NCBI RefSeq assembly: GCF_000454545.1
Contig: NZ_CM002139.1
Span: 694,717-758,716, forward strand
Reading direction: 5' to 3'
Source of the DNA: Xanthomonas cassavae CFBP 4642
Lineage (GTDB): Bacteria > Pseudomonadota > Gammaproteobacteria > Xanthomonadales > Xanthomonadaceae
Length of the DNA stretch: 64,000 bases
The position numbers were made by a program, and so were the translations under genes. Of the stretch, positions 43,293 to 64,000 are shown one piece after another; the first letter of the stretch is position 1; every line of letters begins with the position of its first letter. The notes below the pieces were generated by a model. It was given only the letters and a program-made list of their open reading frames with translations, did not search any database and had not been told where the DNA came from.

Positions 43293-45523
<2,231 letters not shown>

Positions 45524-45899: not shown

Positions 45900-46103
45900 G
45901 CATTGCAGGCGCCGATATCCGACAGGGCCGGAACAGGGGGGATCCAGATTTCCCTGTCGGACATCGACATAAGTCGGTCAGTGGGGCTGGCTGGGTCAGG
46001 AGATGACGCAGCGGGTCACACAGAGCACCTAGCTTGCGACCAAGTGCCGGCTGAACGCAAGCCCCCAATGTCGCCAAGTGTGGGGCGTGTCGCAGTCAGC
46101 TTG
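45900..46103. other. Gene-free stretch
   Basis: Between the symmetric hairpin and the lipoprotein stop. No gene or RNA recognised. Confidence 0.4.
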
Positions 46104-46559
46104 TCACGGAATTTGCTGACGAGGGTTGCGCGGCGCGGTCTGCCGCTGGATTTCGCGAATCACCCGCGGCGGGGCGCCGATCCTGGCCGGCGGCCTGGCC
46201 GGTGCAGCGCCGTTGGCGGGCGGCCGGCTCGGCTGCTGCGGACGTGGTCCACCTGGTCGGGGACCGTTATTGAACGACCCGTTGGGACGAGGCGGCCGAT
46301 ACTGCGGGCGACGGTCGTACTGCCGGTAGTAATAGCCACCGCCGCCACGGTAGACCGGATAGACCGGGTAGTTATACAGCCCGATCGCACCGGCGCCATA
46401 AGGTGCGCCGTAATAGAACGGCGAGTAGCCGGGCGGATAGCGATACTGCACGGCGGGGGCGCCCCGGTAATAGCCGCCTGACCCGGCGCCGGTGTAGTCG
46501 TACGTTGCGCAGCCACCCAGGGCAAGTAGCCCGGCGGCAAAGATCAGACGGAATGTCAT
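46104..46559 (-). CDS. Lipoprotein, Tyr/Gly/Pro-rich
   Basis: A 151-residue lipoprotein. The lipobox is LALGGCA (Cys at residue 18). The mature part has a tyrosine/glycine-rich segment (YRGAPAVQYRYPPGYSPFYY) and then a proline/arginine-rich tail (RPPRPNGSFNNGPRPGGPRP). Such low-complexity lipoproteins occur in cell envelopes; function unknown. ATG at 46559, preceded by AGGAGGGCACC. Confidence 0.75.
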   Translation of the reverse strand: MTFRLIFAAGLLALGGCATYDYTGAGSGGYYRGAPAVQYRYPPGYSPFYYGAPYGAGAIGLYNYPVYPVYRGGGGYYYRQYDRRPQYRPPRPNGSFNNGPRPGGPRPQQPSRPPANGAAPARPPARIGAPPRVIREIQRQTAPRNPRQQIP

Positions 46560-46716
46560 GGATGGTGCCCTCCTGCAACCATGATCTCACTTTCGAACCG
46601 CTGCATTGAATCGGTCCTTAACTGCGCGGCAATGGACTGCTTCTCCATCGATCCAGCATGCGCAGGTGGACTGCCTGCTGGCCGTGAAGAGCGGGACGAT
46701 ACGTTAATCTTGGGAC

Positions 46717-47676: not shown

Positions 47677-48278
47677 GCAGGCGGTCGCGTGGGCTCGGCC
47701 TGTGGGGCTGGGGTTGGCGACTGGGCATGCTGGCGCTGATCTGGCTGGTGGCGGTGGCCGGCTGGATCGTCTGGGTCGGCGACCGTGATCAGGCCGCGCC
47801 GGCCGACGTGATCATCGTGCTGGGCGCGGCCGCCTACGATGCACGTCCTTCGCCGGTGTTCGAAGAACGCATCCGGCACGCGCTGGATCTGTATGCGCAA
47901 GGCTACGCGCCGCACCTGCTGTTCACCGGCGGCTTCGGCAATGGCGCCCGCTTTTCCGAATCGCAGGTGGCGCGGCGCTATGCACTGCGCCATGGCGTGC
48001 CGCCTGAGGCGATCATGATCGAGACCCGGTCGCGGACCACCCGCCAGAATCTGGAACAGGCGCGCGCGCTGATGGAGCGCCACGGCCTGTACCGGGCCAT
48101 CATCGTCAGCGACCCGCTGCACATGGCGCGCGCGCTGCGGCTGAGCCAGGAGCTGGGTGTGGATGCATTGTCCTCGTCCACGCCCAGTACGCGCTTTCGC
48201 AGCTTCCACACCAGCTGGCGCTTTCTGCTGCAGGAGGTCTATTACTTCCACCGCGATCTGGTGGTGCAAGGCCCCTGA
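47661..48278 (+). CDS. YdcF-like (DUF218) membrane protein
   Basis: A 205-residue protein with an N-terminal membrane segment (LGMLALIWLVAVAGWIVWVG). The DUF218 core is DVIIVLGAAAYDARPSPVFE, LLFTGGFGNGARFSESQVAR, IETRSRTTRQNLEQARAL and IIVSDPLHMARALRLSQE. ATG at 47661 overlaps the dehydratase stop by 16 bases; a GTG at 47673 would overlap by GTGA only. Coupling suggests an operon. DUF218 proteins occur in envelope metabolism, substrate unknown. Confidence 0.82.
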   Translation: MGRRVSRRSRGLGLWGWGWRLGMLALIWLVAVAGWIVWVGDRDQAAPADVIIVLGAAAYDARPSPVFEERIRHALDLYAQGYAPHLLFTGGFGNGARFSESQVARRYALRHGVPPEAIMIETRSRTTRQNLEQARALMERHGLYRAIIVSDPLHMARALRLSQELGVDALSSSTPSTRFRSFHTSWRFLLQEVYYFHRDLVVQGP

Positions 48279-48479
48279 GCGGCGCGGCGCGCTGCGCTCA
48301 CGGTAACCCTATCGGCGATGGCGTTCGACCGCCGCACCAGCGTTGTCTTTGATGATGTGGTTTAGCGTCGCAGCAGATCTCGGTGCAAGACAGCGCTGGC
48401 GGTGGTTGTTCCCGGTCCGGTGCCTCCGACGGCGCACCGAACCGCGATGCAGTCGCTGGCGGCGTCTTCGCACGCATGC

Positions 48480-48503
48480 AAAAGCCGCTCTATGATGCGG
48501 CTT
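48480..48503. terminator. Short hairpin after the YdcF-like gene
   Basis: AAAAGCCGC-N8-GCGGCTTTC is a 5-bp GC stem extended by A-T pairs with a T-rich 3' side. It could end the preceding operon but lies 200 bases after its stop. Confidence 0.4.
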
Positions 48504-48523
48504 TCCCAGCGGCAGGTTCGAGC

Positions 48524-48943
48524 ATGAGCGAGAGCACCCGGCAACGCGCCATCGGCCTGGTTCAGGCCTATTACGAGGCCTTCAATCGCGGCGATTGGGA
48601 CGGCATGCTGGCGTTCCTGGCCGACGATGTGGCCCACGACCTCAATCAGGGGCCGCGCGAGATCGGCCGCGCGGAGTTCGCGGCCTTTTTGCAGCGCATG
48701 AACGACAGCTACCGCGAGCAGTTGCACGACATCGTGGTGACCGCCAACCAAGACGGCACGCGTGTCGGCGCCGAATACGTGGTGCACGGGGTCTATCACA
48801 CCACCGACGAAGGCCTGCCGGACGCGAACGGACAGACCTACGTGTTGCCCGGTGGCGCATTCTTCGACATACACGCCGGCAAGATCACCCGCGTCACCAA
48901 CTACTACAACCTGCAGGAATGGATCGCGCAGGTCTCGCGCTGA
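48524..48943 (+). CDS. SnoaL-like/ketosteroid isomerase-related protein
   Basis: A 139-residue cytoplasmic NTF2-fold protein: LVQAYYEAFNRGDWDGMLAF, LADDVAHDLNQGPREIGRAE, GGAFFDIHAGKITRVTNYYN. The pattern Y-x-A-F-N-R-G-D-x-x-G-M-L is the standard SnoaL start. No signal peptide. The ATG at 48524 is chosen, since an upstream extension contains the hairpin at 48480. Substrate unknown. Confidence 0.8.
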   Translation: MSESTRQRAIGLVQAYYEAFNRGDWDGMLAFLADDVAHDLNQGPREIGRAEFAAFLQRMNDSYREQLHDIVVTANQDGTRVGAEYVVHGVYHTTDEGLPDANGQTYVLPGGAFFDIHAGKITRVTNYYNLQEWIAQVSR

Positions 48944-48960
48944 GCACCCACTCGCGCTGC

Positions 48961-49028
48961 GTGGGAGCGCGCCTGGGCGCGATGAGGCGTTATCGGTAAA
49001 GCCTCATCGCGCCCGGGTGCGCTCCTAC
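48961..49028. repeat. REP-like palindromic element
   Basis: Two 28-base arms, GTGGGAGCGCGCCTGGGCGC... and its complement ending GGTGCGCTCCTAC, flank a 12-base loop. The arms pair almost perfectly. GTAGGAGCGC-type palindromes are dispersed through Xanthomonas and Stenotrophomonas genomes. It lies between convergent genes and may also stop transcription. Confidence 0.75.
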
Positions 49029-49043
49029 ACGGTTGGTCCGGCA

Positions 49044-49949
49044 TTACAGCAACACGATCCCGACCACCACCAGGATGAAGATGCTCCACTTGAGCATCTG
49101 GTACAGCGGGTTGTTGCGTTCCTTTAGCGCCTTGGCCTTCAGGCGCGCGGCGTAGAAGTAGCGAAACACGCGGTTGATGCCGCCGGTCTTGTCGCCTTCC
49201 TGGTTGGGCGAGGCGCCAGCCGACAGCAGGCTGCGTCCGACGAAGCGGTTCACCGCCCCGGCCCAGCGCCAGCGCATCGGGCGCTCGATATCGCAGAACA
49301 GGATGATGCGGTCCTGGCCGGTATCGTTGCGCGCGTAGTGAATATAGGTCTCGTCGAACATGGTCCATTCGCCGTCGCGCCAGCTATGCCGCTGGCCGTC
49401 CACGTCGATGAAGCAGCGGTCGTCGTTGGGCGTGGCCAGGCCCAGGTGCAGGCGCATGGAACCGGCAAACGGGTCGCGGTGCGGGCGCAGTTCGCTGCCC
49501 GGCGGCAGCTCGGCAAACATGGCCGCCTTCACCGTGGGAATGGATTTCAACAGCGCGGTGGTCTGTGGGCACAGTTCGGCCGCCGACGGGTGCGCGGTGC
49601 CGTACCACTTCAGATAGAAGCGCTTCCAGCCGCGACGGAAGAACGAGTTGAAGCCGATATCGGTGTAGCCGTCGGCAGCGCGGATCTTCTGCATCTGCTG
49701 CAGCGCCACCGCCTCGTCGCGGATCACCGGCCAGTTCGCGCGCAGCGGCGCCAGTTCCGGAAATTCCCGGCCCGGGTCGATGAATGGCGTGGTCGGCACC
49801 CGCGAGCACAGGTACATCAGCGTGTTGATCGGCGCCATGAAGGTGGAATGGTCCAGCAGCTGCCGGCTGAGCCGGTGCCGCACGCGACCGCGATAATGGA
49901 TGTACAGCGCCGATGCGATGAACAGCGCGATGAGAAGCCACTTCAGCAT
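49044..49949 (-). CDS. lpxO: LpxO-like lipid A 2-hydroxylase (aspartyl/asparaginyl beta-hydroxylase family)
   Basis: A 301-residue inner-membrane protein with an N-terminal membrane helix (LLIALFIASALYI) and a C-terminal one (SIFILVVVGIVLL). The central Fe(II)/2-oxoglutarate domain includes MFAELPPGSELRPHRDPFAG, SMRLHLGLATPNDDRCFIDV and DETYIHYARNDTGQDRIIL, with His and Asp iron ligands in HRD and a later His. LpxO hydroxylates the secondary acyl chain of lipid A. ATG at 49949. Confidence 0.85.
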   Translation of the reverse strand: MLKWLLIALFIASALYIHYRGRVRHRLSRQLLDHSTFMAPINTLMYLCSRVPTTPFIDPGREFPELAPLRANWPVIRDEAVALQQMQKIRAADGYTDIGFNSFFRRGWKRFYLKWYGTAHPSAAELCPQTTALLKSIPTVKAAMFAELPPGSELRPHRDPFAGSMRLHLGLATPNDDRCFIDVDGQRHSWRDGEWTMFDETYIHYARNDTGQDRIILFCDIERPMRWRWAGAVNRFVGRSLLSAGASPNQEGDKTGGINRVFRYFYAARLKAKALKERNNPLYQMLKWSIFILVVVGIVLL

Positions 49950-50189
49950 GGGGGAGGCCGATTGGAAGGGGGCGGGGGGCCGCATACGTTGAAGTGGCCG
50001 CCAAGACCTGCGCACTGTCGCGACGTGTCGGCGGCCACCCTCGAACATGGTGAGCCGCAAGGGGGAGGTGCGGCGTTAACTTCAGAATTCTAGCAAGTGT
50101 GGCCGCCGAGCCTGACAGGCAAGCATTGGCACGCACGCAATACTCTGTGTCTCACCGGCGGCGGGGCGAGCGGCGATCTGGACCACCGC

Positions 50190-51074
50190 TCACTCGCTGC
50201 GACGGCGGATTGGGATGGAAGCGACCGGGACGCTGGCGATGTCCTGGCCGCGCTCGCGGATGGGGGCGCCCGCGGCCGGGGCCCAGGCCTGCGCATAGAT
50301 CACTTCCCAGGAACTGGGCAGGGTGCCGTCCGGCCGGCGCAGCGGTTCGTAGGCGGCGCTGGCGGCGGCGAAGCGGCCGCGTCCGGTGAGGGTGGCGCGG
50401 CGGTTGCTGAGCGCGTTGGTCGCGCCCATCGCACGCAGCTCGCGCATCAACGCCGGCAGGTCGTTGTAGGTGAGGGTGAACAGGTCGCGGTCCAGCACCG
50501 GGTCGCGAAAGCCGGACATCATCAAGGCATCGCCAAATTGGGCGATCGGCGGGAACCGGCTGACGTGCGGGGCGGTGTCGGCCTGGGCGAAAGCCTCGCG
50601 CAACTCGATCAGGGTGTCCGGGCCGAAGGTGGAGCACAGCAGCAGCCCGCCCGGGCGCAGCGCACGACGGAACCCGGCGAATACCGCCGGCAGGTCTTCC
50701 ACCCACTGCAGGCACAGATTGCTGAAGATCACATCCACGCTGCCATCGGCCACCGGCAGCGCGCAGGCGTCGGCGCAGACCTGTGCGAACGGCTTCCACC
50801 AGCCGGCCGCCTTGCGCGCCTGGCGCAGCATCGGCATGGCCTGGTCGAGCGCGATCACCTGGGCCTTCGGCCAGCGCTTCTTGATGCTGCTGCTGGCATG
50901 GCCAGGGCCGGCACCGACATCCAGCACCACCTTGGGCACCTGGTCGCCCAGGTGATCCAGCGATTCGAGCAGGCGGGTCTCCACTTCGCGCTGCAGCGCG
51001 GCGGCGGCGGCATAACTGCTGGCGGCGCGTGCGAAGGCGCGGCGGACGTGGCGGGGGTCGAAAGTGCTGTTCAT
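50190..51074 (-). CDS. bioC: Malonyl-ACP O-methyltransferase BioC
   Basis: A 294-residue SAM methyltransferase that starts biotin pimelate synthesis by methylating malonyl-ACP. SAM motif KVVLDVGAGPGHASSSIKKR near residue 48, post-I acidic VIALDQAMPMLRQAR, and VDVIFSNLCLQWVEDLPAVF near 115. The N-terminus RRAFARAASSYAAAAALQRE is BioC-like. ATG at 51074. The SDR, BioH, BioF and BioB genes lie upstream on the same strand. Confidence 0.9.
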   Translation of the reverse strand: MNSTFDPRHVRRAFARAASSYAAAAALQREVETRLLESLDHLGDQVPKVVLDVGAGPGHASSSIKKRWPKAQVIALDQAMPMLRQARKAAGWWKPFAQVCADACALPVADGSVDVIFSNLCLQWVEDLPAVFAGFRRALRPGGLLLCSTFGPDTLIELREAFAQADTAPHVSRFPPIAQFGDALMMSGFRDPVLDRDLFTLTYNDLPALMRELRAMGATNALSNRRATLTGRGRFAAASAAYEPLRRPDGTLPSSWEVIYAQAWAPAAGAPIRERGQDIASVPVASIPIRRRSE

Positions 51075-51571
51075 TGCGGCGCTATTGTCGCCTGTGGCCG
51101 GTGTGGAGGGAATCGATGCGGGGGTTTGGTTTTGCGTTTGCCTGGAGATCTGACTGTGGCCATTGGTCATCGGTCGTTGGAGCAGGCATAGCCTGGAGAC
51201 TGGCCACATACTGCGACGCGCCGGATTGCGTGGAGTGCGTTCGATCGATCACTGCATCGCGCGCGATATGGCGTACCGCGCGCAGATGCGCTGGGTTGCA
51301 TCGATGCCTCTGCGCGTCTGCGCCGCGCTCGTGCCTGCCAAGGCGATCTTGTGACCACTTTCGTGCCCAGCCGATCGGAGGATGGGCGGCAGTTGCAGTG
51401 CGCACGCTGGCACGGGTCGCGGCGCATGTCGCCCCACGCCACATCGTCCTGACAGGCATGGCCTACAGCTGGTGGTCCGCCATGTCGTGCAGCGCTGACC
51501 TGTGTGGGAAGGTTGTGTGACGCGGTGTCAGCCGACCTTCTGCCTTGCGCCGGCCACTGGCGAGGCGCGCG
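51075..51571. other. Gene-free stretch between the SDR gene and bioC
   Basis: 497 bases with only shadow frames. It probably contains the bioC promoter, but no clear hexamers or BirA-type site were recognised. Confidence 0.4.
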
Positions 51572-52354
51572 CTAGAACGTGCCCGGATAACTGCCGCCAT
51601 CGATCAGCAGGTTCTGCCCGGTGATGTAGCCGGCCTGCGCGCTGCACAGGAACGCGCAGGCGGCGCCGAATTCATCCGGCTCGCCGAAGCGCCGGGCTGG
51701 AATGCCGGCGCGCTTGCGTTCGGCGATCTCGTCGGCCGTCGTGCCCTGTTGTTGCGCGATGGCGGCGAAATTGCCATGCAGCCGGTCGGTGAGGAACTGC
51801 CCGGGCAGCAGGTTGTTGAGGGTGACGTTGTCGGCCACCGTGCTGCGCGCCACGCCCGCCACGAAACCGGTGAGGCCGGCGCGTGCGCCGTTGGACAGGC
51901 CAAGGATGTCGATGGGCGCCTTCACCGCACTGGAGGTGATGTTGACGATGCGGCCGAAACGGCGCGCGCGCATGGCATCGACGGTGGCGCGGATCAGCTC
52001 GATCGGCGCCAGCATGTTGGCATCCAGCGCGCGCAGCCAGTCCTCGCGCTCCCACTGGCGGAAATCCCCCGGCGGCGGGCCACCGGCGTTGTTGATCAGG
52101 ATGTCCACTTGCGGGCAGGCGGCGAGCGCGGCGCTGCGGCCTTGCGCGGTGGCGATGTCGGCGGCCACGCTGCGTACCTCGCCGGTGCCGGAGAGCGCGC
52201 GCAACGCTGCGGCCGCCTGTTCCAGCGCCGCGCGGCCACGCGCGACGATCACCACGTTGACGCCTTCGCTGGCCAGCGCGCGTGCGCAGCCCAGCCCCAA
52301 GCCCTTGCTGGCAGCGCAGACCAGTGCCCAGCGCCCGGCGATTCCCAAATCCAT
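51572..52354 (-). CDS. Short-chain dehydrogenase/reductase
   Basis: A 260-residue SDR. Cofactor loop CAASKGLGLGCARALASEGV near residue 13, VDILINNAGG near 82, and the catalytic region IVNITSSAVKAPIDILGLSN, GARAGLTGFV. The usual catalytic YxxxK is here S-N-G-A-R, i.e. the Tyr and Lys are missing in the expected place, which places it with atypical SDRs. Start at 52354, with GAGG nine bases upstream. It lies between bioH and bioC; a role in biotin synthesis is unproven. Confidence 0.8.
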   Translation of the reverse strand: MDLGIAGRWALVCAASKGLGLGCARALASEGVNVVIVARGRAALEQAAAALRALSGTGEVRSVAADIATAQGRSAALAACPQVDILINNAGGPPPGDFRQWEREDWLRALDANMLAPIELIRATVDAMRARRFGRIVNITSSAVKAPIDILGLSNGARAGLTGFVAGVARSTVADNVTLNNLLPGQFLTDRLHGNFAAIAQQQGTTADEIAERKRAGIPARRFGEPDEFGAACAFLCSAQAGYITGQNLLIDGGSYPGTF

Positions 52355-52398
52355 GCAATGCATCCTCGATCAGCGAAACCGCATGATCGGCGATCTGC

Positions 52399-53160
52399 TC
52401 AGGGCACGGACGCAACGAAGCGTTGCAGCGCCTCGGCGACCTGGTCGGCATGGCCCAGGAACGGTGCGTGACCGCCGCCGGCGATGGTCAGCGTCTGTGC
52501 TTGCGGCGCGCGTGCGGCGGCGGCCTGCATGCCGGCCGCCGGCACCAGCCGGTCGCGCTGGCCGCCGATCCACAGGCTGGGGCGCGTCAGCTGCGGCAGC
52601 GTACGGCGCAGGTCGGTGCGCTCCAGCAGCTGCAGACCTTGTTGCAAGGCCTCGGCAGCAGGCTCGCCGCGCGCGGTGAGCGTCTCGCGCAGGCTGCGCA
52701 ACTCGGCGCGCGCATGCGCCGAGCCCAGCGTATCCAGTGCCAGGAACCGTTCCAGCGTGCCGCGATAATCGCGCGCCAGATCCTGGCCGAACTGCACGAA
52801 CACCTCGCGGTCGACCGCCTCCGGCCAGTCGCTGCCGCGCACGAAGCGGGGCGTGGCGGCGATCATCGCCAGCGCGCGTACCTGCGGCAGGGTGGCGGCC
52901 GCCTGCAGCGCGAACAGGCCACCCAGTGACCAGCCCAGCCACACCGCCGGTGGCGTGGCGGCGGCGATCCCGGCCACCACGTCGGGCAGCGCCAGCGGCG
53001 TGGGGTCCTGGCGGCTGAAGCCATGCCCGGGCAGGTCCACCAGGTGCAATTGGACGTGCGCCGACAGCCGCTCCACCAGCGGTGCGAACACCCCGCCGTG
53101 CAGCGCCCACCCGTGCAGGAGAACCAGTGCCGGCCCTTGGCCGATGACATCGATATGCAT
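52399..53160 (-). CDS. bioH: Pimeloyl-ACP methyl ester carboxylesterase BioH
   Basis: A 253-residue alpha/beta hydrolase. PALVLLHGWALHGGVFAPLV near residue 10, the nucleophile in VWLGWSLGGLFALQAA near 76, the acid in LWIGGQRDRLVPAAGM and the His in IAGGGHAPFLGH. BioH removes the methyl group installed by BioC once the pimeloyl chain is complete. ATG at 53160 (MHIDVIGQGP). Overlong upstream extension rejected. Confidence 0.88.
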   Translation of the reverse strand: MHIDVIGQGPALVLLHGWALHGGVFAPLVERLSAHVQLHLVDLPGHGFSRQDPTPLALPDVVAGIAAATPPAVWLGWSLGGLFALQAAATLPQVRALAMIAATPRFVRGSDWPEAVDREVFVQFGQDLARDYRGTLERFLALDTLGSAHARAELRSLRETLTARGEPAAEALQQGLQLLERTDLRRTLPQLTRPSLWIGGQRDRLVPAAGMQAAAARAPQAQTLTIAGGGHAPFLGHADQVAEALQRFVASVP

Positions 53161-53217
53161 GCGCGCATTGTCGCCGATCGGCGGGCACCGCATGGTGCCC
53201 GGTGTGGTGTGCTCAGG

Positions 53218-53610
53218 TCAGTGTCTGTCGATCGCGCGTAGCGCCTCGATCTTGGGTGCAAGGACTGCCCACTGCGCGCGTGCGTAGCCACGCCGGCACC
53301 AGCGGTCGGGCCATCGCCAGCGCCGCGCGCGCCGCGCGGTGATCGTTGCAGCCAGCCAGTCGGAATCGAACGCATCCCACACGCCCGCCACGCTGCGCAG
53401 ATTGCCGATCACCGCCGGATGCACCTCATGCAACAGCATCGTGCGCAACTGCGGTAGCGTGAACGGCGAAGCGGCCAATGCCTGCGCGATGACGGTGTGT
53501 TCGTCCTCGCCGGCGCTGTCCAGGTACAGCAAGGACAGCGCTTCCCAAGCGCGGCGTTGTGCCGGCGTGGCGGTGATTGGATTGGGCGCGCGTGCGGTCA
53601 CATCGGTCAA
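53218..53610 (-). CDS. DUF7079-like hypothetical protein
   Basis: A 130-residue soluble protein: RAWEALSLLYLDSAGEDEHT, ALAASPFTLPQLRTMLLHEV, HPAVIGNLRSVAGVWDAFD. This matches the DUF7079-type pattern (S-P-F-x-L-x-x-L-x-x-x-L-x-x-E-V-x-P). The tail is basic (RRARRWRWPDRWCRRG). Function unknown. It sits between bioF and bioH on the same strand. Confidence 0.7.
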   Translation of the reverse strand: MTDVTARAPNPITATPAQRRAWEALSLLYLDSAGEDEHTVIAQALAASPFTLPQLRTMLLHEVHPAVIGNLRSVAGVWDAFDSDWLAATITARRARRWRWPDRWCRRGYARAQWAVLAPKIEALRAIDRH

Positions 53611-53959
53611 CGCGCCGCTGCCGGATGCAGTGATGCGTCATGCATGCGCGTGACGCTACCCGCGTGGAAACAGCGATACGGCTCGCCCATTGGTTTGGTA
53701 GAAATACAGCGGTTTTGCGCATGCCGCCTGGGATGGCGATGCGAACCATGCAGCGCGCTGCTCATGCAGGCATGCACGGCGCACCGGAGCCGGCACCCGG
53801 GCGTACGGCCAGCGGCTGTTGTCGTCCATCCGCAGGCATGCTCCATCGGCCATTCGGGCAGCGCCTCCCGCAAGCCGCAGGCAGGGTCCGGCACATGGCG
53901 GCCGACGGCGTGGAGGTCACCTGCACCGACCGAGCGCGGCGGCGCGGTGTCGCCCACCG
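53611..53959. other. Gene-free stretch
   Basis: Only a short, low-quality minus-strand frame (53656-53853) without a recognisable domain. No terminator seen after bioF. Confidence 0.4.
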
Positions 53960-55165
53960 TCAGGCCGAAGCGCGCAGCGGCTGCCGGCTGACCACATCGC
54001 GCGCCTGCACGATGGCCTCGACCAGTGCCTGCACCTGCTGCGGGGTATGCAGCGCCGACAAGGTGACGCGCAGACGCGCCTTGCCCTCCGGCACGGTGGG
54101 CGGGCGGATCGCACCGACCATGAAGCCGGCCTGCTCGAGCGCGGCCGACATCGCCATCACCGTGGCCTCTTCGCCGCACAGCAGGGGCTGGATCGGCGTA
54201 TCGGAGGCCATCAGCTCGAAACCATGCCGGCGCGCACCGTCGCGGAAGGCGCCGATCAGTTCCACCAGGCGCACGCGCCGCCAGTCGTCGCGGCGTGCCA
54301 GGCGCACCGCGGCCAGCGTGGCAGCCACCTGCGCCGGCGGCAGGGCGGTGGTGTAGATGTAGGGACGCGCGGTTTCGGCCAGATGGCGCACCAGCGCTTC
54401 CTCGCCGACCACCACCGCGCCGTAACCCCCCAGCGCCTTGCCCAGGGTGACCAGCTGCAATGGCACCTCTGCCACGCCCAGCCCGGCATCGGCCACGCAA
54501 CCGCGTCCTTGGGGACCGAGCACGCCCACGCCGTGCGCATCGTCGACATAGAACAGCGCCTGCTGCATGCGCGCCACCAGGCTCAACGCACGCAACGGCG
54601 CCACATCGCCATCCATGCTGAAAACGCCATCGCTGGCCAGCATCGCCGCGCCCTCGGGCGCGCCCTTGAGCTGGCGCATCGCGCCTTCCACGTCCAGATG
54701 CGGATAACGCCGCAGCCGGCAACCGGCCAGGCGCGTGGCATCGAGCAGGCTGGCGTGGTTGAGCCGGTCCTGTACGCACACATCGTCTTCTTCGCTGAGC
54801 AGGGCCTGCTGCACGGCCAGATTGGCAATGAAGCCGCTGCCGAACAGCAAGGCCGACGGATAGCCCAGCCAGTCGGCGATCTCGCGTTCCAGCGTTTCGT
54901 GCGCGGTGTGGTGCCCGCAGATCAGGTGCGAGGCGGTGGCGCCGGCGCCGTCGCGCGCGGCGGCATCCTGCAGCGCGGCCACCACTTCGAACTGCTGCGA
55001 CAGGCCCAGATAGTCGTTGGAGCAGAAACCGGTCAGCCAGCGACCATCGATTTCCAGCCGCACCCCGTCGCGACGGCCAACCAGCCGCCGCACCCGCACC
55101 CGCTCCTGGGCCACGCGCAACGTGCGCAGCGACGAAATCCGTTCGTGCAGATCGGGGCGAGTCAT
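53960..55165 (-). CDS. bioF: 8-amino-7-oxononanoate synthase
   Basis: A 401-residue PLP enzyme that joins pimeloyl-ACP and alanine. Motifs: [20 protein letters not shown] near residue 47, [20 protein letters not shown] near 79, [16 protein letters not shown] near 210 and the PLP lysine in [19 protein letters not shown] near 243. ATG at 55165. Standard length for BioF. Confidence 0.93.
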
Positions 55166-55680
55166 GGAGAATTCGATCACGGAAAGGGCCGCTAGCGTAG
55201 CGTGCCGCGCCTGCCTCGCCCAGCGGGTACCGACGGCCGGTGCCGGCGATGCCGGGTTTGCCCGCATGCCAGCCGCTGGATGCCGATGGGGTGCCGTGCC
55301 GCCTGATGCCGGCGATGTCACCCATCGGATGTTTCAACAGTTTGACCGATGCCCAGGCAACTTGGCGCATCGGCAGCGGGCATGCGTGGCGGGGATGGCC
55401 TTCAACGACAGTGGATCAGACCTGCGGCTGCGATTCGGCATCAACGAATCAGGGCCGCCTGCACCGACAGATGCCGGCGGACTTGCGTGACGGGGCCGCA
55501 GCGAGACCGATCACAAGATCTCCTGGCACGATGGGGCCACCGCATCCTGCCGACCGTCGCCAGCTGGCAGCAGAATGTCCGGCAGGTGGTCAGAGCGCTG
55601 CTCCGCGGCGGCGGAGCTCCGGCCAGCCACCGCAAGGACGTCGTTGCATCACGATCCTATGCAGCGAGGAAAATCCGTCG
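55166..55680. other. Gene-free stretch between bioB and bioF
   Basis: 515 bases without a supportable gene. It should carry the bioF promoter. No BirA operator or terminator was recognised. Confidence 0.4.
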
Positions 55681-56715
55681 TTATGCCGCGTGTTCGCACG
55701 CCGCCTCGCAGGTGATGTCCGCATGCACGGTGCCGGGGTGGTCGTGGTCGGCGGCATCGACAGTGATCTGCATCGGGCGCAGGCCCAGGCGCTGGAACAG
55801 GGCCTGGTCGCGTTCGGTGTCCGGGTTGCCGGTGGTGAGCAGTTTTTCGCCGTAGAAGATCGAGTTCGCACCGGCCAGGAAACACAGCGCCTGCAGCTCG
55901 TCGCTCATCGCTTCGCGGCCTGCGGACAGGCGCACCATCGATTTGGGCATGGTGATGCGGGCGACGGCGATCATGCGCACGAACTCGAACGGATCCAGCT
56001 GCTGGGTACCGTGCAGCGGCGTCCCGGGCACCTGCACCAGCTGGTTGATCGGCACCGAGTCCGGATGCGCAGGCAAGGTGGCCAGCGCCAGCAGCAGGCC
56101 AATGCGGTGCTCGCGGGTTTCGCCCATGCCGACGATGCCGCCGCAACAGGTCTTCAGGCCCACATCGCGCACATGCTCCAGGGTGTTCAGGCGGTCCTGG
56201 TACTGGCGGGTGTGGATGATGGAGTCGTAGTAATCCGGCGCGGTGTCCAGATTGTGGTTGTAGTAGTCCAGCCCGGCGTCCTTGAGCGCACGCGCCTGGC
56301 CGGCGTCGAGCATGCCCAGCGTGGCGCAGGTTTCCAGCCCCAGCGCCTTGACCTCGCGGATCATCGCCGCCACCTTGGGGATGTCGCGCTCCTTGGGCGA
56401 GCGCCACGCCGCGCCCATGCAGAAGCGCGAGGCGCCGGCCGCCTTGGCCTGGCGCGCCTTGGCGACGACGGCCTCGGTCTCCATCAGCTTTTGCGCGCTC
56501 ACCCCGGTGTCGTAGCGCTGCGCCTGCGGGCAGTACGCGCAATCTTCCGGGCATCCGCCGGTCTTGACCGACAGCAGCGTGGAGACCTGTACCTGGGAGG
56601 GATCGAAATGTGCGCGGTGCACGGTGGCCGCGTGATGCAGCAACTCGGGGAACGGCAGCTCGAACAGCGCCTGCACGTCTTTGCGATCCCAGTCATGGCG
56701 TACGACAACAGACAT
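55681..56715 (-). CDS. bioB: Biotin synthase
   Basis: A 344-residue radical-SAM enzyme inserting sulfur into dethiobiotin. The 4Fe-4S ligands are C55-x3-C59-x2-C62 ([13 protein letters not shown]). Further family parts are [40 protein letters not shown] and [23 protein letters not shown] at 56715 ([14 protein letters not shown]). Divergent from comF, 49 bases away. Confidence 0.95.
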
Positions 56716-56764
56716 CGGAGTTTCCTGACAGTCAGCGGCTTGGAAGCCAGGCAGTCTGGTGAGC

Positions 56765-57490
56765 ATGGAAGAGGCTGTCAACTTCACTGAAGTGGGTTCG
56801 GTTTACAGATGGCCGCAGCGGATACTGCGGCTGCTGCTGCCGAGCCTGTGCCTGGTCTGCGCGGAAGCGGGCATGGCCGACTGCGATCTGTGCCCCTGCT
56901 GCCGCGCCGCCTTGCCGGAGCACGGCCACGCCTGCCTGTGCTGCGCCACGCCGTTGTTCGCCTTCGATGGCGCAGCGTTATGCGGGCGATGCCTGCAGCA
57001 GCTGCCACCGCTGCAGCGGGTGCATGCCTGCTTTACCTATCGCTGGCCGGTGGATGGCTTGCTGCGCCGTTTCAAGTTCCACCAGGACCTGGCGGCCGGC
57101 CGCTTGCTGAGCGAACTAATGGCCAGGCGCTGCGCCCAGTTGCCGCGGCCCCAGGCGCTGGTGCCGGTGAGCCTGCATCGACAACGTCTGCGCCAGCGCG
57201 GCTACGACCAGGCGCTTGAGCTGGCCAGGCCGCTCGGCCGGGCGCTGCAGCTGCCATGCCTGCCATTGCTGCGGCGTGTGCGTGCCACTGCGCCGCAATC
57301 GGAGCTGGATGCTGCCGAGCGCCAGCGCAACCTGCGCGACGCCTTTGTCGCGCGTGGCCCGTTACCTGCCCATGTCGCGCTGGTGGACGATGTGATGACT
57401 ACCGGCGCCACGTTGCACGCCGCCGCGCAGGCCTTGCGCCGGGCCGGCGTGCAACGGGTGGATGCCTGGGTCTGCGCACGGGTGCCGTGA
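56765..57490 (+). CDS. comF: ComF-family phosphoribosyltransferase-like protein
   Basis: A 241-residue protein. The N-terminal zinc-binding cysteines occur as CLVC, CDLCPCC, CLCC and CGRC. The C-terminal PRTase domain has [20 protein letters not shown] and the PRPP loop [20 protein letters not shown] near residue 205. ComF proteins support DNA uptake in competent bacteria. ATG at 56765; a GTG two codons upstream (56759) is possible. Confidence 0.88.
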
Positions 57491-57506
57491 GGAGTGTGAA
57501 CGCGGT

Positions 57507-57548
57507 CCCGTACCCTCACCCCAATCCCTCTCCCGCAGGAGAGGGGCG
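57507..57548. repeat. Dispersed hairpin repeat
   Basis: TACCCTCACCCCAATCCCTC followed by TCCCGCAGGAGAGGGG: a C-rich run that folds on itself (CCCTCTCC/GGAGAGGG). Sequences of this type recur between genes in xanthomonads. It lies between convergent comF and ubiA. Confidence 0.5.
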
Positions 57549-57622
57549 TGTTGCCTGCGGGGCGGTTCTCTGCGGCGCAGGCTCCGCTTTGGATAGATCA
57601 ACGTTTTCCCACATCACCGCGG

Positions 57623-58522
57623 CTAACGTGCCGCCACCGCGATGCCGACGAAGATCGCCAGGCCGACCCAGTTGTTATGCAGGAAGGCGCGGAAGCAGGG
57701 GCCGCGTTCGCGGTGGCGGGCGATGCGGAATTCGTAGGCCACCAGCAGCAGCGCCACGGCCAGACCTGCCCAGTAGAAGGCGCCGAGGCCGGCACGCAGG
57801 CCTACTGCGGCCAGGGTGGCGAACATCAGCGCATACAGCGTGCCCTGGGCAAACAGGTCGTAGCGGCCGAACAGGATGGCGGTGGATTTGCTGCCCATGC
57901 GGATGTCGTCCTCGCGGTCGACCATGGCGTACCAGGTGTCGTAGGCAGTCGCCCACAGGATGTTGGCCGCATACAGCAGCCAGCCGAGCAACGGCACGCT
58001 GCCCTGCACGGCGGCAAAGGCCATCGGGATGCCCCAGCCGAACGCCATGCCCAGATAGACCTGGGGCAAATGGGTGTGGCGCTTGAGATAGGGGTAGCTG
58101 GCGGCCAGGAAGACGCCGGGCACGCTCAGCGCCACGGTCAGCCAGTTGAGGCTGAGTACCAGCGCGAACGCCACCAGCATCAGCACCACGAACACCCACA
58201 GCGCCTCGCGGCCGGAGACCGCGCCGGTGGCCAGCGGACGCGACTTGGTGCGTTCTACATGCGGGTCCAGCCAGCGGTCGGCGTAGTCGTTGATCACGCA
58301 GCCGGCCGAGCGGGTCAGCCAAACCCCGGCGGTGAACACGAACAGCGTCCACAGCGGCGGCATGCCGTCGGCGGCCAGCCACAGCGCCCACCATGTGGGC
58401 CAGAGCAGCAACAGGCTGCCGATCGGACGGTCGCCACGCACCAGCTTCCAGTACTGCCCCAGCCGCTCGGACAACGTCAGCGCGGGCGCGGTAGGGACCT
58501 GTTCAACACCATGCTTGCTCAT
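57623..58522 (-). CDS. ubiA: 4-hydroxybenzoate octaprenyltransferase
   Basis: A 299-residue polytopic prenyltransferase of ubiquinone synthesis that attaches the polyprenyl chain to 4-hydroxybenzoate. First Asp-rich motif [20 protein letters not shown] near residue 78, second [20 protein letters not shown] near 200, with about eight hydrophobic helices. ATG at 58522 (MSKHGVEQV). It competes with PobA for the same substrate. Confidence 0.93.
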
Positions 58523-58795
58523 GCCGCAAAGGGTAGCAGCGCGCTCCGGATGCAGCCATGCACCGGCTGGTGCAGATGCGTCTGCCAGCTGAAACATTGC
58601 CTTGCCGGCAGAGGCGGCAGCTCGGAGCGCCGCTCGCCACTCCGGTACGGGGGGCAGGCTCCGGGAGCAGCGCATCTGGAACGCCACGCTGAGGTGCGTC
58701 ATCGGCGCTGTCGGCAATCGGCCACCAGCAATCAGCCACGCCAGCTGGGGCAGGCATCACGCGGTGGCACGGGTTCTGGCATAATGCACGGCCAG

Positions 58796-58872
58796 GCGCC
58801 CGTAGCTCAGCCGGATAGAGTAGTGGCTTCCGAAGCCATTGGTCGGGGGTTCGAATCCCTCCGGGCGCACCA
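58796..58872 (+). tRNA. tRNA-Arg (anticodon CCG)
   Basis: A complete cloverleaf: acceptor stem GCGCCCG/CGGGCGC, anticodon stem GTGGC/GCCAT with loop TTCCGAA (anticodon at 58830-58832), T-arm GGGGGTTCGAATCCCTC, and encoded CCA. It decodes CGG. Its 3' end is the likely attachment site of the island that follows. Confidence 0.95.
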
Positions 58873-58904
58873 GATGAACCCTCCGGGGACATCCAAGAAA
58901 GTCC

Positions 58905-58932
58905 AAAACCCCCGAGAAATCGGGGGTTTTTT
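58905..58932 (+). terminator. Rho-independent terminator of the tRNA
   Basis: AAAACCCCCGA-GAAA-TCGGGGGTTTTTT directly after the tRNA gene. Confidence 0.88.
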
Positions 58933-59035
58933 GTTGCCTGCAGGTCTTCCTACGTCCACCCTGATCCATTGAAATCCAGGCTGATCGGGGGCATAGATGG
59001 GGGCACCAGCCCCCAGTGCGAAAGCGGATGCCCCC

Positions 59036-60253
59036 ATGCCCCTGAGTGACGCTGCAGTGCGTAACGCAAAGCCCGCTGCCAAGCCCATGAGACTGTTCGA
59101 CGGCGGCGGCTTGTACGTCGAGATCTCGCCGAAAGGCGCCAAGCTATGGCGATGGAAGTATCGCTTTGGCGGTAAGGAGAAGCGCTTGGCACTGGGGGTC
59201 TACCCGGAGGTCAGCTTGGCAGAGGCGCGAGCGCAGCATCTGGAAGCACGCAAAGTCCTCCGGTCCGGCATCGACCCAGGTGAGAAGAGGAGGGTCGACA
59301 GGCTGGTGCGCGTTGATCGGTCCCAGCTCAGCTTTGCAGCTGTAGCCGCAGAGCTCCTGAACCTGCATGGCAAGAAGAATTCCGTCCTGACGATGAAGCG
59401 CAATGGCAGGATCGTCGAAAAGGACCTCAACCCCTATCTGGGCGATAGGCCTATCGCTGAGATATCTGCGCCGGAACTTCTCGCTGTCCTGCGCAAGATA
59501 GAAACGCGTGGCGCCATTGAGACAGCTCATCGTGCTCGGGGTATTGCCAGCATGGTGTTTCGATATGCCATCACCGTAGGCAAGGCTGAGCGTGACCCGG
59601 CTGCCGATCTTTTTGGGGCGCTAGAGACCCCAAAGGTGCAGAATTTCGCCAGCCTGACAGAGCCTGCTGCGGTTGCGCCCTTGCTGAGGGCCTTATGGGG
59701 GTACGAAGGAAGCGCCGTTGTGCGCGCTGCCCTAAAGCTTGCGCCCTTGGTCTTCGCGCGGCCAGGCGAGCTGCGGACAGCCAAGTGGGCAGACATCGAT
59801 CTTGAAGCTGGCGAATGGCGTTACGTCGCCACTAAAACCGGCACCCCCCACATTGTGCCGCTTGCCTCCCAAGCAGTTGATGTCCTTCATGAGCTTCAGC
59901 CCGTCACCAGAAGCAGTGAGTTCCTATTCCCTAGTCTTCATGGAAAGGGAAGGCCGATGAGCGATAGCACCATCAATGCTGCCTTGAGGCGGATGGGGTT
60001 TGATTCCAAGACCATGACCGGTCACGGGTTTCGTGCGATGGCTCGCACGATCCTGGATGAGGTGCTTGGCTTCCGCCCCGACTACATTGAACACCAGCTT
60101 GCGCATGCTGTGCGTGACCCGAATGGCAGGGCCTACAACCGCACAGCTCATCTCACCGAGCGCCGAAAGATGATGCAAGCGTGGGCCGACTATCTAGACG
60201 GTCTACGGAGCTCCGGGGAGAAGGTCGTGCCTATTCGCAAGAAGATGGCGTGA
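59036..60253 (+). CDS. P4-type tyrosine integrase (DUF4102)
   Basis: A 405-residue tRNA-targeting integrase. N-terminal DUF4102 domain: MPLSDAAVRNAKPAAKPMRL and RLALGVYPEVSLAEARAQHL. Catalytic residues: Arg in VFARPGELRTAKW, HxxR in TGHGFRAMART, and the Tyr in the DPNGRAYNRTAH segment. The ATG at 59036 is the domain's natural start. It follows tRNA-Arg directly, so it most likely inserted the island there. Confidence 0.9.
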   Translation: MPLSDAAVRNAKPAAKPMRLFDGGGLYVEISPKGAKLWRWKYRFGGKEKRLALGVYPEVSLAEARAQHLEARKVLRSGIDPGEKRRVDRLVRVDRSQLSFAAVAAELLNLHGKKNSVLTMKRNGRIVEKDLNPYLGDRPIAEISAPELLAVLRKIETRGAIETAHRARGIASMVFRYAITVGKAERDPAADLFGALETPKVQNFASLTEPAAVAPLLRALWGYEGSAVVRAALKLAPLVFARPGELRTAKWADIDLEAGEWRYVATKTGTPHIVPLASQAVDVLHELQPVTRSSEFLFPSLHGKGRPMSDSTINAALRRMGFDSKTMTGHGFRAMARTILDEVLGFRPDYIEHQLAHAVRDPNGRAYNRTAHLTERRKMMQAWADYLDGLRSSGEKVVPIRKKMA

Positions 60254-60344
60254 GTTGACGTTGGATTCTGGCCTCGTGCTGGCGTTCTTTTCGCGGCACC
60301 GAGTGCTTTTCCAGATACTTCAATTGAAGCGAGAAAGGGAACTG

Positions 60345-60705
60345 ATGTCGCGGTATAGTGAGATTCCGGTGATCGATTTGTTCGCCGGGCCAGGAGGCTT
60401 GTGCGAAGGATTTTCATCCATCCTTGACGAAAATGGCGTGCGACGTTTCTCCGTCAAGGTATCCGTGGAGAAGGACCCGATCGCCCATCGGACGCTGCTG
60501 CTGCGGGCAATCTTCCGCAAGTTCCCCAAGGGCAAGGTCCCCGACTGCTACTACGACTACGTTCGCGGCAAGATCACCCGCGAGGCGTTCCTTGAACACC
60601 CCGATATCACGGATGCTGCCGAACACGCTGCCAGGGAGGCGCGCTGCGCGGAACTCGGCGTTACGCCGGCCAAGGAGGTGGACGGCTGGATCCGAGAGGG
60701 CGGTC
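60345..60705 (+). pseudogene. DNA cytosine methyltransferase, 5' part cut by IS30
   Basis: Starts at 60345 after GAGAAAGGGA. The N-terminus has the SAM motif of C5-methyltransferases, IPVIDLFAGPGGLCEGFSSI, followed by SVKVSVEKDPIAHRTLLLRA. About 120 residues remain up to the IS30 boundary at 60706; the catalytic PC motif and target-recognition parts are absent. It was probably part of a restriction-modification or defence module on the island. Confidence 0.75.
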
Positions 60706-61722
60706 TCAACTTGCAAGTGCAACACGTGAGTTGAATTGAGCGATCTCTTCTTCCAGCGCCTGGTTCGGCGTCTTCCAGCCAAGCGTCTGCCGTGGCCGGG
60801 CGTTCATCAGGTCGGCGACGTTGTTGAGATACTCCTGGCTCGCCTTGGACAAGTCCGCGCCTTTTGGCATGAACTGGCGCAGCAGGCCGTTGGTGTTCTC
60901 ATTGCTGCCGCGCTGCCAGGGCGCATGTGGATCGGCGAACCAAAGATCGATGTTGAGCCGCTTCATCAGCTCTGGATAACACGTCATCTCGGTTCCGCGG
61001 TCATAGGTGAGGCTTCCCAGTAGGAAACGCGGCAGCTTCTTCATCTGTCGCGTGAAGCCCTCCAGCGCATCCTGTGCAGTACAGCCATCCATCTTGCACA
61101 GCACCACAAAGCGCGTCTTTCGCTCCACCAGCGTGCCTACGCACGAGCGGTTGAAAGCCCCTTTGATCAGGTCGCCTTCCCAGTGCCCAGGAATCAAGCG
61201 CTGCGCCACCTCTTCAGGCCGATGGACGATACGCAGCTCCTCCGGCACCCACGTGCGCTTGGCAGCGGTTGTACGGCGCAAGCCTCGCGTCGGCTTGTGC
61301 TGACGAAGCGCCTCCACAAGCTCTTTCTTCAAACCACCACGCGGATGCGCGTAGATAGCGGCGTAGATTGTTTCGTGACTCACGCGTTGACTTGGATCAT
61401 CCGGATGCATGGCCTTGAGCTTGGCAGCAATTTGCTGGGGCGACCAACGATACAGAACCAAGTCGTCACGCACCTGCTGAAAGAGCGCACTGCCTTCAAC
61501 AAGCCGGCGCCTTCGAACGCACGCTCTGCGGCGCAGCCGATAGTTGCTGGCTGCGCTGGTTGCCGCATAGACAGGTTCGCCCTGTCGCCTTATCTCGCGC
61601 GACAGGGTGGACGCACTGCGATTGAGTCGCCTTGCAATGGAGTTGATGCTCATTCCGTTACCGAGTTCAATTTGAAGCAAAGCGCGTTCTTCGGAACCCA
61701 GGTGCCTGTACTGTGTGCCCAT
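60706..61722 (-). CDS. IS30-family transposase
   Basis: A 338-residue transposase. N-terminal HTH (MSINSIARRLNRSASTLSRE) and the DDE residues in PGHWEGDLIKG, SLTYDRGTEMTCYP and HAPWQRGSNENTNGLLRQFM. The frame is intact and ends at the very tip of the element: the stop codon is formed by the first three bases of the left inverted repeat. Confidence 0.93.
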   Translation of the reverse strand: MGTQYRHLGSEERALLQIELGNGMSINSIARRLNRSASTLSREIRRQGEPVYAATSAASNYRLRRRACVRRRRLVEGSALFQQVRDDLVLYRWSPQQIAAKLKAMHPDDPSQRVSHETIYAAIYAHPRGGLKKELVEALRQHKPTRGLRRTTAAKRTWVPEELRIVHRPEEVAQRLIPGHWEGDLIKGAFNRSCVGTLVERKTRFVVLCKMDGCTAQDALEGFTRQMKKLPRFLLGSLTYDRGTEMTCYPELMKRLNIDLWFADPHAPWQRGSNENTNGLLRQFMPKGADLSKASQEYLNNVADLMNARPRQTLGWKTPNQALEEEIAQFNSRVALAS

Positions 61723-61766
61723 GCCGCTACCCTACGTCAAGGCGGGGTGTTGCACTTGGAAGTTGA
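60706..61766 (-). mobile_element. IS30-family insertion sequence
   Basis: 1061 bases with 20-base terminal inverted repeats (TCAACTTGCAAGTGCAACAC on the left; the right end differs at one base). The trinucleotide GTC flanks both ends (60703-60705 and 61767-61769), a possible target duplication. It joins two unrelated gene fragments. Confidence 0.9.
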
Positions 61767-62109
61767 GTCTAAGGTCTTGGGAGAAGAGTATGTGAATCGA
61801 GCACTGCAATGGTCGGAAGATTTGGATGCGACTGAGTTTCAGCGTCTCCTTACTGAGTTTTGCTGGGCGGAAGTCTGGTCCAGGGATGTTTTGCCGGACC
61901 GGGAAAAGAGTCTTATTTGCTTAGGCATGCTGATTTCTGGTGGACGGCAGTTCGAACTTACCCAGCACTTCAGGGCAGCGATGAAAAATGGACTCACTAA
62001 GAAGGAGATAATGGAAGTCATCATATTCAGCATGCCTTATGCAGGCGTACCTCTTGCGCTTGAGGCGTTGAAGAGCTGGAGCGCGATGCAAAAAGGAAGC
62101 GATGAATGA
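61767..62109 (+). pseudogene. Carboxymuconolactone decarboxylase-family gene, 5' end lost to IS30
   Basis: The readable part begins KVLGEEYVNRALQWSEDLDA and continues TEFCWAEVWSRDVLPDREKS, LICLGMLISGGRQFELTQHF, IIFSMPYAGVPLALEALKSW. It is a PcaC-like AhpD fold with the pcaC Cys replaced by Ala (YAGVP against YCGVP). About ten N-terminal residues and the start are missing at the IS30 junction. It overlaps the ACP gene by ATGA, so the two were co-transcribed. Confidence 0.7.
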
Positions 62110-62372
62110 AATTTGAATTTGATGCGGTCGATCGAGCAATTCGTGATCTTATTGCAGAAATGACGGAGCTTGAGCGCCCCTTGAAATCTGAAGACCGCTT
62201 GATCGACGATCTCGCGCTTTCATCGATTGATATGGTCGAGATATCTACTGCGCTTCGCAAGAAATTTGGCATTGATATCCCAGTTCAAAAACTTGCGTCA
62301 TGCTTTTCTTTCAATGACCTATTGAACCTCTGCCTAAGCAGCTCGCTTACACTTCAGCAGGCAGCCCACTGA
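62106..62372 (+). CDS. Acyl carrier protein
   Basis: An 88-residue ACP. The phosphopantetheine serine lies in DDLALSSIDMVEIST near residue 40 (usual D-S-L replaced by S-S-I). Helices fit the ACP fold. Starts inside the stop of the CMD gene (ATGA) with AAGGAAG upstream. Low GC and AT-rich codons unlike the flanking chromosome. It is distinct from housekeeping AcpP and probably serves the glycosyltransferase that follows. Confidence 0.82.
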   Translation: MKFEFDAVDRAIRDLIAEMTELERPLKSEDRLIDDLALSSIDMVEISTALRKKFGIDIPVQKLASCFSFNDLLNLCLSSSLTLQQAAH

Positions 62373-62417
62373 AATTATAACAAAATCAAAATAGGCCTAC
62401 CTTTTCAGGAACAACAG

Positions 62418-63928
62418 ATGGTCGAATGGTGGAGTTGTGACGCCAGGCATAGAAGGCGTATATATATACAACTGGTTTTTTCTGCATTCTTTTTGATTTT
62501 CACTTCTTTTTTTCTATTGACCTGCTTAACCACAACTACCTGGCAGGCTGCTATAGCGATTTCCGCCTGCCTTTTTCCTATTTCGTTGAATACCGCCACC
62601 ATTCTATCGCAGCATTTACTTAGGCGCTTCGCTGGTAGCGAAGCGCCAATAGAAAGATCTACTTCAGACAACCATGCCCGCCCCAAATGTACCGTTGCAA
62701 TACCTTGCATCGTTTATGGCCGCGATGAAATTGATGAAGCGATAGCGACGGTTCGACAGAATTTTGTTAGAAATCATGGATTGGCGACTTTTTTTGTATC
62801 GCTTTCGATTTTTTTGACTGCCAGAATGGGCCTTTTCACAGCCTAGATGATGAGCTCTTACTTTATGCAAAAAAGGAATTGTCGCGGCTTGAGCAGGACG
62901 TTCCAGCGGCACGCGGCAAGCTAGTGGCTTTTTTTCGTCACCGATTATGGAGTAGTAGCGAGAACTCTTGGATTGGCTGGGAGCGAAAGCGTGGCAAAAT
63001 CATCGAGTTGTGCAGGCTGATTGCGCGAGGAGAAACCGGGTCTCTTTTCGTTATCTATGGCAAGAGTGCTTACATTAGGAACAGCACCTACCTAATGATC
63101 CTAGATAGTGATTCTTGGCTTGAGTACGGCGGTCTTGATCAGCTGATCGACGCTATGGAGGATCAATCGGCAACGCCCCATATTAAGGGAAAAATTCTTG
63201 AAGCCGGTTACGTAATAGGCTGCCCCCGCGGTCTATGTAGGCCAGGAGAGAACGGCACGACGTTCTCTAAAATTCTTTTTTATAATCGACTAGAACCACA
63301 AGTTCGATCGATCGAGCCAAGCTTCTTCCAAAATATCCTTGGTCATCACATATTCGTGGGAAAGGGTCTGTACAACGTATCAGCTTTTTTGGAGCTCGTA
63401 GACAGACGCCTGCCTTCAGGACGCGTGCTAAGCCATGACCACTTGGAGGGCATGCTCGCGATACCTGCCTACATATCTGATGTCTACTTCTATCAGTCAT
63501 ATCCTCAGCAGTACTCAAGCTGGCGCGCACGCCAACATAGGTGGATCCGTGGTGACGTGCAGACGATTCCCTGGATCATCCTTCCCAGTGTTAGCGGAGA
63601 GCGCCAGTCGCGAATTTCTCTTAATTTTTTAGACCGCTTAAAGTTAGCAACTAATATTGCCAATCATCTTACGCAAGTTGGGCAATTTTTGATTCTCGTT
63701 ATCATTGCGATCGGAGGAGTAAAGTTTTCTATCGCTTTCACTTTAGCAACACTCGCTCTCGGCGCTCCTGCACTGTGGATCGGCATCGGATTCAGAGTCT
63801 TTGAGAAGTTACTGTATCACCGCTCACTCAAACGGCAAGAACAGATTACTATTCGATCTATATTTTCAAGTACATCAGGGGATTTTAAAATATTTTTACT
63901 TAATCTTGCCGACGTCCCCCCATCCTGA
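62418..63928 (+). pseudogene. GT84-type membrane glycosyltransferase (cyclic glucan synthase-like), frameshifted
   Basis: ATG at 62418. Two N-terminal membrane segments (IQLVFSAFFLIFTSFFLLTC, AIAISACLFPISLNTATIL), then CTVAIPCIVYGRDEIDEAIA. Near 62806-62816 one base is missing; the other frame gives DFFDCQNGPFHSLDDELLLY, WIGWERKRGKIIELCRLIAR, LMILDSDSWL (DxD), GKGLYNVSAFLELV, VLSHDHLEGMLAIPAYISDV and RQHRWIRGDVQ. These are the signature blocks of the GT84 domain of NdvB-type cyclic beta-1,2-glucan synthases. Two or three membrane helices follow. It ends abruptly beside a probable IS3 end, so the C-terminus is also lost. Confidence 0.7.
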
Positions 63929-63941
63929 GTAGCAGTCGGGT

Positions 63942-64000
63942 TTAGAGTCCGGGGTTGATGATATCGCTGTTGGCCAGGTGCTGGGCATAGGCCGTCGGCG
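63942..64000 (-). CDS. Possible IS3-family transposase, C-terminal end
   Basis: On the minus strand a frame enters from beyond the window and ends TAYAQHLANSDIINPGL with TAA at 63944-63942. Together with a C-rich putative terminal repeat near 63912-63925 this suggests the end of an IS3-type element. Only 19 codons are visible, so the call is tentative. Confidence 0.4.
   Translation of the reverse strand, partial: PTAYAQHLANSDIINPGL

Follow-up and report, generated by a model that had tools for sequence, protein, structure and literature searches.

An orphan, broken gene block on a tRNA-Arg island encodes a GT84-like glycosyltransferase apparently without the primer tyrosine of cyclic glucan synthases

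The membrane glucosyltransferase OpgH (MdoH) works with OpgG and the housekeeping acyl carrier protein (ACP). ACP is reportedly needed for glucan synthesis in E. coli (Therisod, 1986, as cited in PMC10514313). In the cyclic glucan synthase (Cgs, or NdvB) of Agrobacterium, Tyr694 in the IF1h loop is the self-glucosylated primer site that makes the enzyme self-priming; this assignment, and the residue roles used below, come from PMC10901819. PMC11195616 describes an actinomycete metabolite island that holds a carboxymuconolactone decarboxylase-like (CMD) gene together with an ACP gene.

Here we analyze a window of 64,000 nucleotides (C6:694717-758716) from a 5.27 Mb genome, near the right end of which a CMD gene, an ACP gene and a GT84-like glycosyltransferase (GT) gene lie contiguously on one strand, with similarly low GC content (Table 1). 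Read outward from the tRNA-Arg gene, the order is integrase, N-terminal part of a methyltransferase, IS30-type element, CMD, ACP, GT and the end of an insertion sequence (IS). A sequence-only reading of this DNA had described the three genes as the wreck of an AT-rich set on a tRNA island, and each part of that description holds. The reading frames are real, as judged from Pfam, NCBIfam and phmmer matches; the CMD gene has lost its start at IS30, and the GT gene carries a frameshift and breaks off at an IS on its 3′ side. GC content is 49% in CMD, 45% in ACP and 44% and 47% in the two pieces of the GT, against 67% in the neighboring core (40000-58000); the IS30 element, the integrase and the methyltransferase parts have 59-61%. 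The tRNA gene is followed by the integrase gene, a search for an attR copy of the tRNA end gave matches of 10-12 bases only, and an Rfam scan of 57000-64000 returned the tRNA only. The same reading had proposed coupled starts, which is correct for CMD and ACP, whose genes overlap by 4 bases (ATGA), and incorrect for ACP and GT, which are separated by a 45-base gap containing a separate AGGA. No IS remnants lie between the three genes.

Table 1. Coordinates of the features at and around the gene block (positions of the window; the second IS30 copy lies outside it).
Feature	Position	Strand	Evidence
tRNA-Arg (CCG), island anchor	58796..58872	+	ARAGORN, Rfam
Tyrosine integrase of the island	58997..60253	+	Pfam PF22022, PF13356, PF00589
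C5 DNA methyltransferase, N-terminal part, interrupted by IS30	60342..60698	+	PADLOC DrmMII, E 5e-12
IS30-type element, copy 1	60699..61773	-	Pfam HTH_38 and rve, DNA comparison
CMD (PcaC-like) gene without 5′ end	61774..62109	+	PF02627, PcaC model
Specialized acyl carrier protein, 88 aa	62106..62372	+	PF00550, NCBIfam
GT84-like glycosyltransferase, piece 1 (two membrane helices and start of GT domain)	62418..62846	+	Local alignment, hydropathy
GT84-like glycosyltransferase, piece 2 (catalytic domain and later helices, 3′ end missing)	62879..63908	+	phmmer, residue tests
IS1403/IS1404-type (IS3 family) end, cuts off the GT gene	63909..64000	.	Genome repeats, plasmid matches
IS30-type element, copy 2, outside the window	64588-65662	inverted relative to copy 1	Identical DNA

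The surroundings of the block have been rearranged. The two IS30 copies are identical over 1076 bases (one counted as flank) and lie in opposite orientation. Each is bordered by two unlike 3-base flanks, GAG and GTC, whose partners are found at the other copy. Such an exchange of target duplications is what an inversion of the DNA between the copies would leave. The interrupted methyltransferase supports the inversion: its next part lies on the opposite strand beyond the window, at about 64188-64587, and the stretches 60322-60699 and 64192-64571, on opposite strands, match at 77 and 80% two neighboring segments, separated by 12 bases, of a single 521-aa gene from another genome (G005). The N-terminal part is 82% identical to the G005 gene. 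That relative (L088, G005:C12:514000-532000) is located near Vsr, MzaB and MzaC genes, in an Mza-like defense locus. To the right of the second IS30 copy, outside the window and coded on the other strand, is the C-terminal remnant of the Lamassu gene LmuB (65664-66326; PADLOC E 5.9e-29, covering positions 396-588 of a profile with 610), the N-terminal part of which is missing. It follows from the inversion that the 5′ side of CMD once abutted the DNA to the right of IS30 copy 2, that is, the LmuB remnant. The CMD-ACP-GT set is a broken insert among broken defense genes.

The element that cuts off the GT gene is a multicopy one. Its end occurs at least 28 times in the same genome, this locus among them (40 of 57 candidates scored), and it matches 19 plasmid records, all from Xanthomonas; among the 12 of these that were listed, the matching DNA is IS1403, IS1404 or IS3 where annotated. 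Directly after it comes a scaffold gap of 100 N (64001-64100), followed by the end of a different repeated element with at least 38 matches (40 of 55 candidates scored). Since the gap is flanked by the ends of two different multicopy elements (63909-64190), there is some doubt about the scaffold join, in favor of which the IS30 copies and the split methyltransferase speak.

The ACP contains a phosphopantetheine-binding domain (PF00550, E 9.3e-9, 35.9 bits against a cut-off of 20.8), and the attachment serine of the carrier motif is kept, by eye, in the alignment. It falls under the cut-off of all 18 NCBIfam models that it matches; the best fatty-acid ACP model gives 34.4 bits against a cut-off of 83, and TIGR00517 gives 27.1 against 70.45. 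The protein scores below the cut-offs of the fatty-acid ACP models and is not the housekeeping ACP; to this extent the earlier suggestion of a dedicated carrier is supported. A sample of 184 further genomes of the class yielded no relatives of it at E≤1e-8, and a search of plasmids gave five weak matches.

The CMD protein is assigned to its family by Pfam (PF02627, E 6.8e-20) and, with the gene truncated at its 5′ end, scores 101.1 bits against the cut-off of 155.7 for the PcaC equivalog model of NCBIfam. The open reading frame as listed begins within IS30 DNA, with the gene's own DNA starting where that element ends, so there is no start codon of its own at this locus. The genome has its own PcaC-like open reading frame (38663-39049, 128 aa), to which the CMD protein is 44% identical over 98 residues, and a further CMD match at C6:3372675. 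Both of these other CMD proteins have a cysteine at the position of the PcaC cysteine, where the protein of the block has alanine. The sequence-only reading was right that this cysteine is missing, but the absence is not unusual. Two matched CMD structures likewise carry alanine there, and we reject the missing cysteine as a special trait.

Piece 2 of the GT matches chains 8rf9 and 8rf0 of Agrobacterium Cgs/NdvB at E 4.6e-33 (phmmer). The gene is read in two frames in the assembly, with the frameshift between the two pieces; the open frame of piece 2 reaches back to 62771. Piece 1 aligns locally to two stand-alone GT84 proteins of another genome in the genus (G024, described below), with an alignment that was matched by 0 of 300 shuffles, and it aligns to a Cgs-like protein (L034) from about residue 301 of the latter. 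The GT begins at its first membrane helix, without an N-terminal domain, and keeps the DxD, SHDHLEG and QHRW blocks. The earlier description of a GT84 domain with two N-terminal helices is supported by phmmer, alignment and hydropathy together. Against the MdoH equivalog model, piece 2 alone scores 18.8 bits (E 5e-4), below the cut-off of 328. From about 63909 the last codons of the frame are insertion-sequence DNA, and the true C-terminus is therefore missing, which makes the stand-alone GT of the earlier reading a putative one; no cyclase or GH94 domain is evident in the fragment, which ends at that IS. In a tree of 61 GT domains the GT sits on a very long branch (6.12), and its place is unsure. 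That the segment might be a piece of a normal NdvB had been named beforehand as a possible refutation; we reject a plain NdvB fragment, since the N-terminal domain is absent and the primer tyrosine is replaced.

The primer site was read from an alignment of 62 rows, comprising the GT of the block, the two GTs of G024, the 8rf0 segment and 58 full-length Cgs-like GT domains. These 58 are the best matches with loci from the GT searches rather than a family survey, and 56 of them are distinct (one gene is in twice, and two others are identical). R586, D624, D626, D739, R773 and W774 are kept in all 62 rows, and the same holds for R776 in 57 of 58 full-length rows (the last being unreadable) and in the other four. 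Tyr694 and Tyr702 are present in 58/58 full-length rows; in the GT of the block they are replaced by Gln and Phe. Both G024 proteins have Ser and Asp at these positions, in columns made less sure by a 5-residue insertion, and neither has any tyrosine in 684-703. The predicted enzyme has all the residues tested that bind and transfer UDP-sugar, while its primer tyrosine is replaced, and a GT without the self-priming Tyr694 would be a new point on the GT84 domain.

We compared this loss with losses elsewhere in the domain. Among 47 columns that are invariant in the full-length set, the GT of the block keeps 32 and the G024 proteins keep 38 (L013) and 39 (L014). All three of the invariant columns within the published loop 684-701 are lost in each of the three proteins; by counting, the chance of this is 0.028 for the GT of the block, 0.005 for L013 and 0.0035 for L014. 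With the region stretched to 703, which was our own choice, 4/4 are lost and the chances become 0.008, 0.0007 and 0.0004, respectively. Being near relatives, L013 and L014 count as one case. The GT of the block has lost 15 of the 47 columns, 11 of them outside the stretched region; because it is broken, lies on a very long branch and has lost these 11 other columns, the change at the tyrosine may be decay. A tyrosine is also present in it at position 687, seven columns ahead of the primer position, and the enzyme may have primed itself on a different tyrosine.

The stand-alone GT84s of G024 are intact proteins of 707 aa (L013:6734-8857 and L014:7269-9392), 29-31% identical to the GT of the block (E 1.9e-32) and about 100 residues longer at the N-terminus. 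One adjoins genes for a carbamoyltransferase, a luciferase-like monooxygenase and an amidohydrolase, and the other adjoins genes for an epimerase, a methyltransferase and a Stf0 sulfotransferase. With these specialized-metabolism-like genes, both surroundings are candidate sugar-bearing metabolite clusters. No neighbor matches the ACP or CMD of the block at E≤0.01 among open reading frames of at least 50 aa in the 16 kb around each.

The CMD-ACP-GT84 order was sought in sampled genomes, one per species, and in plasmid, phage and viral sequences. At the DNA level, 12 of 34 other genomes of the genus match the block, only at its two IS ends (at most eight candidates scored per genome), and plasmids gave no match. 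At the protein level the GT has relatives in 18 of these 34 genomes; 17 have Cgs-like open frames of 2544-2900 aa, and the remaining one is G024. Beyond the genus, matches other than the genome's own were found in 5 of 397 genomes of the order (open frames 2886-2949 aa) and 2 of 369 of the class (2915-2921 aa), both at E 1e-42, and in 33 of 398 of the phylum at E 1e-34 (2362-3023 aa); at these limits, stand-alone forms that match no better than the G024 proteins would be unlisted. A search with a G024 GT84 as the query, at a limit of 1e-110, matched 63 of 348 genomes; the open frames are 2455-3102 aa long in every one of them, and G024 itself is absent from this set. One scan of genome contigs gave one relative, a 2835-aa Brevefilum protein, and 129 plasmid records match the GT, of which three were checked (all 2748-2875 aa). 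Outside G024, identities of the matches in genus, order, class, phylum and contigs are 31-38%.

No second example of the CMD-ACP-GT84 order was found in genomes, plasmids or viral contigs within the E limits used, and a partial literature search for such a cluster brought no gain. The order is an orphan in the collections searched, at these thresholds. The sequence-only reading had raised the prospect of a conserved system and had named the lack of any other genome with this order as a refutation; none was found among the sampled genomes at the E limits used, and a conserved system is not supported. The GT had no match in phages, and neither it nor the ACP had a match in two scans of viral contigs, which leaves a phage origin unsupported.

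The locus is an orphan fragment, to all appearances dead, that holds a GT84 of a new kind, and its three genes look like what is left of a single acquired operon. A chance patchwork, in which insertion sequences joined three gene fragments of different origin, would suit the setting, where an LmuB remnant, a split methyltransferase and the ends of three kinds of repeated element lie close together. We consider it quite improbable, given that no IS separates the three genes, that CMD and ACP overlap, and that the 44-49% GC of the three sets them apart from the core and also from the IS30, integrase and methyltransferase DNA. The GT could instead be the leading portion of a cyclic glucan synthase of aberrant type that lost its cyclase and phosphorylase domains at the IS-associated break, with CMD and ACP as unrelated neighbors. 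The severed 3′ end agrees with this, as do the open frames of 2362-3102 aa in all listed GT84 matches apart from G024; yet the GT starts at its first helix, 45 bases past the ACP gene, with no N-terminal domain before it, and it has no tyrosine at a primer site where all 58 full-length rows have one, and this origin seems unlikely.

An OpgH-like glucan system, in which the GT made a linear glucan and the dedicated ACP served as a protein cofactor instead of an acyl donor, would account for the replaced primer tyrosine and would parallel the ACP requirement in E. coli (Therisod, 1986, cited in PMC10514313); the GT also has a weak local match to the MdoH/OpgH model. It is nonetheless far nearer to Cgs (E 4.6e-33) than to that model (E 5e-4), and there is no opgG-like gene in the fragment. 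A CMD protein is not known to have a role in an OpgH-type system, and we judge this explanation unlikely.

The reading that we favor, if tentatively, takes the block for the dead remnant of an operon that arrived by horizontal transfer and whose product was probably a sugar-lipid or a similar ACP-linked glycoconjugate. CMD has lost its start, and the GT its 3′ end, at IS elements; the GT gene carries a frameshift, and the block was inverted between the IS30 copies. As the GT is without the known primer tyrosine, its acceptor was probably something else, and the enzyme would have passed sugar to a separate acceptor, not to itself. The adjoining ACP and CMD genes point to an acyl or lactone moiety, which would make the product glycolipid-like: the ACP may have carried or presented the acyl part, or bound the enzyme, given that E. 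coli glucan synthesis needs ACP, and an acyl or lactone intermediate may have been the substrate of the CMD protein. For a GT84 without Tyr694, a putative ACP-borne acceptor is plausible, with the roles of ACP and CMD drawn solely from the gene neighborhood. The ACP link carries limited weight, since the genes of the block are broken and no second copy of them is known.

On sequence grounds, GT84s without the primer tyrosine probably use another acceptor, and the combination of retained catalytic residues with a missing primer suggests reuse of the domain with other acceptors. Such reuse can be tested with the intact G024 genes, which are the best place to study this type of GT84. That there is a compact, previously unnamed GT84 class, devoid of the self-priming tyrosine (and, in the block, of the N-terminal domain), with ACP as carrier or acceptor and glycolipid-like metabolites as products, we regard as very unlikely.

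Compared with known systems, the CMD protein belongs with PcaC in the CMD family and is 44% identical to the genome's own PcaC, from which it differs in scoring under the equivalog cut-off and in having alanine instead of cysteine. OpgH/MdoH is likewise a membrane glucosyltransferase, and its pathway reportedly requires ACP in E. coli (Therisod, 1986, cited in PMC10514313), but its sequence is only distantly related to that of the GT (E 5e-4). Cgs shares with the GT the GT84 catalytic domain, the tested catalytic residues and helices before and after the domain, whereas the GT is without the N-terminal domain, has Tyr694 replaced and is adjoined by ACP and CMD. The G024 proteins, although only 29-31% identical to the GT, about 100 residues longer at the N-terminus and without a nearby ACP or CMD match, have lost the same primer-loop columns; they themselves are not part of a 2800-aa protein.
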